From assembly GCA_030062745.1 (NCBI GenBank), contig CP099842.1, forward strand, positions 19,873,822 to 19,937,821: DNA of 64,000 bases, given 5' to 3'. The notes below the pieces were generated by a model. That model was given only the letters and a program-made list of their open reading frames with translations, was not told where the DNA came from and did not search any database. Source of the DNA: Capitulum mitella. Its lineage: Eukaryota; Arthropoda; Thecostraca; Pollicipedomorpha; Pollicipedidae. Shown here piece by piece: positions 46,301-49,300 of this stretch. Position numbers and translations under genes: made by a program. How positions within the stretch are numbered: position 1 is the stretch's first letter; the number at the start of each line of letters is the position of its first letter.

Positions 46301-49300
46301 TCGAAGTGAGTGCGCGCCGTTTGCAGGGCCGCTGTCGGTTGCCGGCGGGCGCGTCGCGTCCGCTGGCGTTGCCTGACGCGGATCGGGTTGTCGCGGAGTG
46401 GCGGGTGCGACAGACGGGAGAAAATGGGAACCGGCTGGGTACGGTACGACTGCGCGAAGGCGACAGTCATGCGGCAGCGACGGTGGGTTTTTGCGGAAAT
46501 AAGGGGGTTGTTTTTTGCCGCTTACATGCAGCCAGAAGCGAGTAGTTGCGTTAATTGTTTCACGCGCGTTTTTACAGCTGTTCCTTCGGCCGGACTTCCC
46601 GGAAAATTCCGAACTTTGAGTCGAGCGTGGCTTTCACTCTCTGCTGTGCAGTCTGCACTCGCTGCAACACATGGGCCGGTGCACGAACCCCCCAGACCGC
46701 TGATAAGCCGCCCACCTGGCCATCGGGGCGGAAGCCAGCGCCACGCACGGCGACGTGCGACTAGCTTGCGATCTTATCAGAGGCATGTCGCTCATGCTGC
46801 AATGTATTTCTCATGATGCTGCCTGGGGGATCCTAATGAATGAACTGTCCCACGCCGCGAACTTCTTGCCGATCGTGGCCATTTCTTGCGGACCAGTAGG
46901 TATTGCAGTGCTTGAGGTAGCACTTAAGGTACCCATTAGCACTGGGATTCTTTCAAAGAATTTTTCATTGTCTAGCACCGTCGGCAGTTGTGTTTGGCCC
47001 ATTTTTCGCCCAGTGCCTGTCCCGGCGCTGCCGCTCCAATGTCTGGTGTCGGCCAGGGACGTAGCCAATGGGGACAGGGGCCATGGGGGCCGTGACCCCC
47101 TCCTTCGCCTTGAGCCAAGCGGTCTACACTACATATTCAGCGATTTCACAGGAATACGGAATAAGGATCATATATACGTTACAGAAGCAAACTTATGTTT
47201 TTCCGGCGCGTTAAGTATGAGGTCATTCACATACAGTTGTTGCTTTTTCGTGCAAATTTTGTCACATGCCAGGAACATATGACAAAATTTGACATATGCC
47301 CCCCCCGAAGAATGGTGCCTTGCGTCTGCTCCAGCGCCTGCGGCTCTGACACCCGCCTCTGCCCGCAGTGAAGGAGGACACGCTGATGGACATGGTGCAC
47401 AACATGACTGCCCGCGTGGGTCTGGTGCACCAGATGCCGTTCACCTGCGACCGGTCGGGCTTCGTCTCCGTTCTGGAGAAGGTGAGCTTACGGGCGCGCG
47501 CGGCGCCTGAAAGAGCGGCCGGAATGCGGTCCGGTTCGCCCGGACGTCGTTCATGCGTCGGGTTAGAGATGGTGAGGCTGTGCGTGTCCAGGTTACGGAA
47601 ACGGCGGCTCTATGTTGCGTGGCGATTGGCTGATTGTGGTCAGCTGAGACACGGTATGCCTGTGTTAATCACATGCGTTTTTCATTTGTTCATTGATTTC
47701 TGTTACAAGAGTATTTCTTGCCAACTCATCATCTCTGCCTGCTCGGAGTTTGTCACTGAGCTCAGACCGGGTCGTCGTCTCGGCAGGCCCGAGACGGCCT
47801 TTAACCCGAGCCCCCTCCCGGACAGGTGTACTTCGGCACGTGTCACGCGCGCATCTACATGAGCGCCGGCTTGCTGGGCATCAACTGTGCCACGGGCATG
47901 TCGGCGCTGATGCGGAAGGGCCCGCTGGACGAGGCCGGCGGGCTGCGCGCCTTCGGCTGCTACCTGGCCGAGGATTACTTCTTCGCGCAGACGTTCCAGC
48001 GGCGCGGCTACCGGCTGGCCATCGCCTCATCGCCGGCCTGCCAGAATGCCGATACGCGCGAGATCGTCGGCTTCCAGAGCCGCCTGACCAGGTGCGGCCG
48101 AGTGGGGTCACCCTGTGGTCACCCTGACCGCGTAGAGCCAAAGGAGATCACCCGACCAGTTAGGGTCGAATGGAGGCACCCTGGCCAGGTGCGGCCGGGC
48201 AGGGTAGGGCCAGGTACTCTGTGGTCATCTGACCAGGTACGACCGAGCAGGGTCGCCCTGAGCAGGTACGGCAGAGTGGGGTCACCCTGACCGGGTGCGG
48301 CCGGACAAAATCACCATGCGGCCGTCTGACCAGGTACGGGCTAGTAGGGTCACCCTGTGACATCTTGACATAGTGGTTTATGGTTGGAGAGTTTTGGTCG
48401 CATTTTTGCACATTTCTTCACTTTTTCAGAGGTTGCGCAGCAAAACTTTGCTGGGCTGAAGTCCTGCGCGCTTTTTACGCTGTTCTGTGCTATTCGGTTT
48501 GACCTCCAAAACGCGGAATACGGCTTAGGAAACTGTGGCCATTGGCGTTTTTCACAAACCCCTCGAATTCAAAACGCGTGAAGGACTGATGCGTTGTTGC
48601 GTGCATAGTTTTGTTTGATGCATTTAGGAACATAGTAACGCCACAAATGGCGCTTTCATGCCGAATACCGGCGTGGTTGCCAGTTTTAGAGCGCTGGCAT
48701 TGACTCCCGTCTGGCGCGAACGCATCTCCGCGGCGGCTGTTTATCAAGAGCTGTCCATCAGACCACTGGGAGGGGGTCGAAATTAAACCGACGCCCTGGG
48801 AGAGCCGGCCGGCCACCGGTGTCGATGCCTCCGTGTCGCAGGTAGCCGCCGAGAAATGCAGCGATACCGCGCACGTGAACAGGCTTAAGGTCGGTAGGAG
48901 ATGCATTGATTGTAGTAGCTTGGTAGGCTAGGAGTGGGAGCTGCGATGCTTGCGCGCAAAGTTCACTTGGCTTCAGTCTTGTTGCGCTCCTAAGCTGCAG
49001 CTGTTCTGTGTCCCAATGCATAACCCGTTCGTCCTACACGAGACCAGCTGAAGACGTGTGGCTAATCCCAGGACCAGGTCGTCATCCGGCTCGACCTTTG
49101 AGACGTGCGTTCTAGGTTTAGTTGGTTTTCAGCAGGACGTATGCAGTCGGACGCCAACGGAACATTGATCACAGCATGACATAAGTGACCTGTCTAAAGT
49201 GACCGGAGAATATAAAGAGATACTGGGCTTCCCCCACGACTCGGCAGCCTTCACGCTCGGCAGACCTGGTGGGGTAAACGTTTGACCTTCGACATTATTG

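Follow-up and report, generated by a model that had tools for sequence, protein, structure and literature searches.

A degenerate 29-nt tandem array runs through the exon 6 5′ splice site of GlcT in Capitulum mitella

Results

The window analysed here is a stretch of 64,000 nt of Capitulum mitella DNA (assembly GCA_030062745.1, contig CP099842.1, positions 19,873,822–19,937,821 of the forward strand). Its GC content, calculated per 2 kb, is 0.49–0.69, and the genome that holds it comprises 477 Mb in 16 contigs. On the + strand lies GlcT, which we rebuilt as a model of eight exons joining into an open frame of 414 residues. Exons 1–5 of the coding sequence occupy 25225–25346, 38955–39096, 42874–42976, 46204–46305 and 47369–47481. 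Exon 6 (47826–48091) ends in phase 2 (...FQSRLT-AG), exon 7 (50965–51154) starts with G TGG and completes R283-W284, and exon 8 occupies 53622–53828. Phmmer aligned residues 19–399 of 414 with PDB 26qf, “Ceramide glucosyltransferase”, at E 3.7e-129; this chain we take to be the human enzyme, and two distinct PDB sequences of that name (26qf and others) were matched by the protein. The alignment with 26qf is ungapped across the exon 6/7 junction, fqsrltrwaklr lying on fqsrmirwtklr. Exon 6 also matched Pfam PF13506 (Glyco_transf_21; E 1.9e-21), and exons 1 and 7 gave no Pfam match. Residues 280–284 read RLTRW, so the RxxRW motif of GT21 is present, and similarity is near full-length. The gene had originally been called GlcT from its letters, and this call is correct: the exons join to an open protein with strong phmmer and Pfam support. 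Because protein conservation continues without a gap across the exon 6/7 junction, 48092 was marked as the working donor of exon 6 (donor coordinates are those of the first intron base throughout). A megablast comparison of exon 6 with a phage collection produced no match.

Tandem repeats occur elsewhere in the gene and in the window. Two adjoining arrays with 6/12/18-nt and 42-nt units (38678–38911) end 43 nt before the exon 2 acceptor, and a 24-nt array of 7.5 copies (39115–39298) starts 18 nt after the exon 2 donor (39097), with the boundary itself not copied; exon 2 is thus flanked by arrays on both sides. Intron 3 contains a nearly pure CGG microsatellite of ~45 units (45263–45396), and a 25-nt minisatellite of ~18 units is located at 7804–8264, a part of the window to which no gene was assigned. 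At the other end of the window, four minus-strand ORFs within 57056–63237 (57751–58143, 57056–57331, 59366–59464 and 63076–63237) have GlcT-like codon usage, suggesting a second gene, and none of the four had a Pfam match.

The exon 6 donor is traversed by a degenerate 29-nt array at 48083–48358. Unit 1 (48083–48111) is made up of 9 exon nt and 20 intron nt, CCTGACCAG/GTGCGGCCGAGTGGGGTCAC (the slash marks the junction here and below), and the intronic part (48112–48358) holds seven more full 29-nt units plus partial units. The seven intronic full units have the consensus CCTGACCAG/GTACGGCCGAGTAGGGTCAC, and CAG/GT is kept in four of them and in one partial unit (48214). The original prediction placed the donor at the edge of the array. 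The array does adjoin exon 6, but the donor sits inside unit 1, the first 9 bases of which belong to the coding exon. A repeat search with a 39-nt block spanning the junction recovered seven copies including the reference, the other six being 67–87% identical to the first. TRF alone picks up just 2.5 copies (48229–48301), for which reason we call the array degenerate.

To score the + strand of the window we used a profile built from the seven intronic full units only. The true junction reached 39.1, the + strand maximum, ahead of the training units (28.0–36.2) and of the best position outside the array (17.6). Scored alone, the exon part of unit 1 (9 bases) again came first on this strand, and none of 63 further CAGGT sites lying outside the array came up to it. 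Among the 7 donors and 7 acceptors of GlcT, donor 6 is the only site with self-copies matching at least 18 of 29 positions; it has seven, the best at 26/29, a result equalled in 0 of 200 shuffles. Candidate dispersed copies at 25513 and 58887 (profile scores 17.6 and 17.0) have no surrounding 29-nt array and were rejected. At up to 3 mismatches the unit had four forward matches in the whole genome, all at this locus, and none in reverse, and a reversed-pattern control returned 0 matches; a family of closely similar copies scattered through the genome is therefore not where the unit came from. It is confirmed that the tandem copies at the GlcT exon 6 donor are real and beyond chance.

Arrays cover 3.7% of the window, and a minisatellite could have been born within intron 6 with an edge that merely resembles the end of the exon. 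This coincidence is highly improbable given that the exon bases are in exact register and first-ranked in the window, and that no unit resembles the copies as closely as the one at the junction. Random placement of 24 arrays, hand-merged from TRF rows and with the extents of the exon 6 array set by eye, put some array over one of the 7 GlcT donors with probability 0.23 and an array start 0–10 nt upstream of a donor with probability 0.028, in what was a post hoc comparison; an overlap of this sort is in itself no rarity.

Comparison of the units points to the junction unit as the founder, since it agrees with the consensus of the copies at 27 of 29 positions, above every copy (19–26). The last copy (48334) shares a longer block with unit 1, extending through GCCG upstream and CCCTGTG downstream, and this extended match is consistent with a first duplication of ~39 nt. 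Changed bases in the copies amount to 8 of 63 at exon-derived positions versus 39 of 140 at intron-derived ones (P 0.019, post hoc and one of several tests). Donor-core bases changed in 4 of 35 cases and the remaining bases in 43 of 168 (P 0.08); donor cores do not decay faster, and hence there is no sign of decoys being purged. We consider it very probable that this intronic minisatellite began as a duplication spanning the 5′ splice site of GlcT intron 6 and that its copies are tolerated decoys. The segment copied in tandem into intron 6 would have taken in 9 (perhaps 13) bases from the end of the exon, the donor itself and ~20 intron bases. After the first copying the array would have expanded and then decayed, with the true junction, as founder, held by coding and splicing selection and the copies drifting as intron.

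Several of the copies retain donors comparable to the original. We rated donors by a position weight matrix (PWM), with bits computed from a frequency table, and by U1 duplex energy. The true donor (48092–48097, CAG/GTGCGG, inside unit 1) scores 7.9 bits with a U1 energy of −7.2, and it is the sole donor of the 7 in GlcT without GTRAG. The decoy at 48189–48194 (+97 nt, 7.9 bits) is identical to it. Decoys at 48237–48242 (CAG/GTACGA, +145 nt), 48266–48271 (CAG/GTACGG, +174 nt or 58 codons, frame-preserving) and 48334–48339 (CAG/GTACGG, in the last unit, +242 nt) score 7.7, 8.1 and 8.1 bits; those at 48214–48219 (CAG/GTACTC, in a partial unit, +122 nt) and 48295–48300 (CGG/GTGCGG, +203 nt) score 3.9 and 5.6. 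One decoy absent from the original prediction, at 48204–48209 (AGG/GTAGGG, +112 nt), pairs better with U1 than the true donor (−9.1) yet has a lower PWM score (6.4). The U1 energies of all decoys span −6.5 to −9.1. CAG/GT-type junctions had been listed at six positions, and GT is present at every one; CAG/GT occurs at five, 48295 having CGG/GT. The further idea that AG/GTACG decoys are better than the true site is right in that GTACG occurs at 48237, 48266 and 48334, but the margin is slight: 48266 and 48334 exceed the true donor by 0.2 bits (8.1 vs 7.9), with U1 energies of −7.3 and −7.4 vs −7.2. Most decoys equal the true donor and any advantage over it is marginal. The data support the presence of decoys about as strong as the true donor, one of which keeps the frame.

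Predicted unpaired accessibility (0.21 at 48092, 0.12–0.47 at the decoys) gave no separation of real from decoy sites. Folding of the array is more stable than that of most shuffled versions (z −2.15), 3 of 100 of which fold equally well, and no Rfam families were found in 44900–51500. That PWM score, U1 pairing and predicted accessibility all fail to single out 48092 weighs against a preference for it; being the first donor in order and abutting a conserved exon are what lead us to infer that 48092 is the expected donor. Most likely it would be used nearly always, and the decoys may yield rare noise transcripts.

If donors of equal strength compete, array copy number could act as a splicing rheostat that sets the proportions of productive GlcT mRNA and of frame-shifted, decay-prone or extended forms. 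Three array donors have PWM scores at or above that of the true donor, where the density over the window predicts 0.16 per 270 nt, and only 0.28% of 267-nt windows contain as many donors this strong. There is also precedent in human genes, with AGGT sites in tandem repeats described as stochastically used in UBC (PMC10809524), and boundary repeats as changing the splicing of some genes (PMC2812944). Decoys other than 48266 had been expected to shift the frame and possibly to send the mRNA to decay. Assuming no 3′ UTR intron, the expectation of decay is half right: with 48214, 48295 and 48334 a stop precedes the last junction by 149, 197 and 236 nt, as happens only for donors adding 3n+2 nt. 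The other three of the six frame-shifting decoys (48189, 48204 and 48237) give no such stop; they read through exon 7 into exon 8, where their frame closes 371 nt beyond the junction and later than the normal stop, with products of 502–518 residues. Amphioxus genes with comparable arrays are moreover reported without splicing disturbance (PMC3087553, PMC3902484). Taken together, these points make a copy-number rheostat unlikely.

Use of the donor at 48266 had been predicted to add 58 residues in frame, and the arithmetic is exact. The insertion is 174 nt, the codon is split AG/G as at the true site, the residues would enter between T282 and R283, and the GlcT frame is open to 48290, with the stop at 48288–48290. 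These properties would suit a genuine GlcT isoform, a very unlikely reading. The extension scores −0.290 per codon, just as random stretches without a stop do (−0.294, sd 0.181; of 3000 sampled, 838 were open), whereas the 8 GlcT exons, which are also the training set, score 0.10 to 0.59. An open stretch of this length can be put down to chance: its probability is 0.13 and 0.17 under two Markov models, and among stretches taken at random from the window the open fraction is 0.28. The insert would also break a block aligned without gaps to 26qf, splitting RxxRW and probably leaving the enzyme inactive, as expected from the role of this motif. With no coding signature, the extension was rejected as an evolved isoform, and it looks like a chance by-product.

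A different role for the copies would be dual-specific or recursive splicing, with AG/GT units serving as both acceptor and donor in stepwise intron removal or as the seed of a new intron. The five intronic CAG/GT units would allow this, and intron gain by AGGT tandem duplication is described in PMC3087553 and PMC4974935. The duplication in PMC4974935 crosses an intron–exon boundary as in GlcT, where we see no sign of a new intron. The dual-specific sites of human UBC likewise carry AGGT in their repeat units, but the UBC repeats belong to coding sequence and splicing takes place inside their array (PMC10809524), whereas the GlcT copies are intronic with weak acceptor context. The pyrimidine fraction upstream of the intronic units is 0.25–0.62, versus 0.62–0.81 at the 7 real acceptors and 0.49 over all window AG dinucleotides, an argument that is weak because the ranges touch. 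Splicing of this kind is most unlikely at the GlcT array.

A sample unselected for arrays was drawn from myosin-head exons. Of 86 Pfam matches, 75 rows were examined, giving 60 donors and 62 acceptors; the 11 rows excluded lay outside the examined regions, ran off their ends, had no intron or contained stops. Donors were chosen by PWM near the ends of the Pfam matches, and related myosin exons are not independent. With an array marked by a copy at 24/29 or better within 600 nt, 2 of 60 donors and 0 of 62 acceptors carried the mark; among kinesin exons, none of 14 donors and none of 16 acceptors did. The same mark applied to 3.2% of random positions in the myosin regions (4000 draws) and 1.6% in the window. 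A first look at GlcT introns 2 and 6 had suggested a donor preference (P 0.004, post hoc), which was not supported at 2 of 74 donors against the random base rate of 3.2%. The 74 donors and 78 acceptors are too few for donors to be compared with acceptors. We did not count as arrays two weaker donor flags in L042, whose best copies match at 20 and 19 of 29, or five acceptor flags, with best copies at 18–21 of 29 and the highest in L013/L043.

The two marked donors belong to two myosin genes, L034 and L054, whose donor-spanning arrays have units unrelated to that of GlcT. In L034, which coincides with part of L036, the exon ...RISAAGYPSR ends CCCGTCCAG/GTGGGCAGCGG between 1703 and 1704 and joins the next exon in frame (GYPS-RWLYQEFFYRY). 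TRF reports 17.3 copies of a 23-nt unit at 1689–2085 (G000:C2, about 10,684,317–10,684,713). The junction, with 12 exon and 11 intron nt, recurs at 23/23 identity at +45, +90 and +158, the first two being multiples of three, and four more copies match at 18–22 of 23. The L054 array (9071–9322, donor at 9109) has a 79-nt unit that includes 38 nt of exon; its copies match at 75/79 and 74/79, and both have GC where the junction has GT. Long minisatellites of 15–21 copies of 19–40-nt units were also seen in myosin regions at L037:5568–6196, L039:1–360 and L046:2917–3515, and TRF returned 68 rows, some overlapping, in 168,870 bases. Minisatellite abundance together with the lack of donor enrichment explains arrays at donors without a targeted mechanism. 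Donors are neither clearly enriched nor spared, and junction-spanning arrays are evidently tolerated. Seeding of this kind has also taken place at other donors of this minisatellite-rich genome, at roughly the rate of arrays anywhere.

Discussion

The GlcT array fits a known kind of structure, the mirage, reportedly first described in amphioxus Adh. The GC content of amphioxus is ~41%, unlike that of our window. As described in PMC3087553 and PMC3902484, mirages are minisatellite-like tandem copies across an exon–intron boundary of Adh3, the globins BflGb6 and BflGb9 and TnC, with a similar structure in PGBD5; their units are 10–160 bp, many with AG/GT, and regular splicing and length instability are reported. 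The GlcT unit likewise combines exon and intron sequence of one boundary, its 29 nt fall within the 10–160 bp given in PMC3087553, and many but not all copies keep AG/GT. Here too more than one gene is involved (GlcT and the myosins L034 and L054). The differences are that the genes are not those of amphioxus, that all three cases here lie on the donor side whereas both sides are represented in amphioxus, and that GlcT copies are identical to the founder at 19–26 of 29 positions, less alike than the units of BflGb6 (81–100%). A search confined to the open-licence literature met mirages in this sense in these amphioxus papers, and the word also occurs in PMC13078855, PMC7710358 and PMC5714495; with that scope, any claim that such structures are unreported outside amphioxus is weak.

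Human genes in segmental duplications offer a second comparison. As described in PMC2812944, they contain ~30-bp repeats, some at exon–intron boundaries, that can activate cryptic splice sites, and variable repeats at the boundary can give rise to novel introns and to alternative transcripts. Such effects speak against taking the silence of the GlcT copies for granted. The human repeats differ in copy number from paralog to paralog and are backed by transcripts, whereas the GlcT array is known from the sequence of one assembly.

Boundary-spanning minisatellites recur in three genes of C. mitella. A wider reading, in which this recurrence in a GC-rich genome outside amphioxus goes together with copy number tuning or diversifying the output of GlcT and the two myosins, is improbable. 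The GlcT array is no evidence for a new isoform. It does appear that the amphioxus mirage extends to another animal lineage and to several genes there. The GlcT locus presents a natural series of near-identical 5′ splice sites, a true donor followed by several decoys, in which real and decoy donors are not told apart by local strength, U1 pairing or predicted accessibility, and in the myosin array of L034 three copies even share all 23 nt. Such loci would help to show which factors other than the donor's own sequence, for instance its position or exon definition, govern which donor is chosen.
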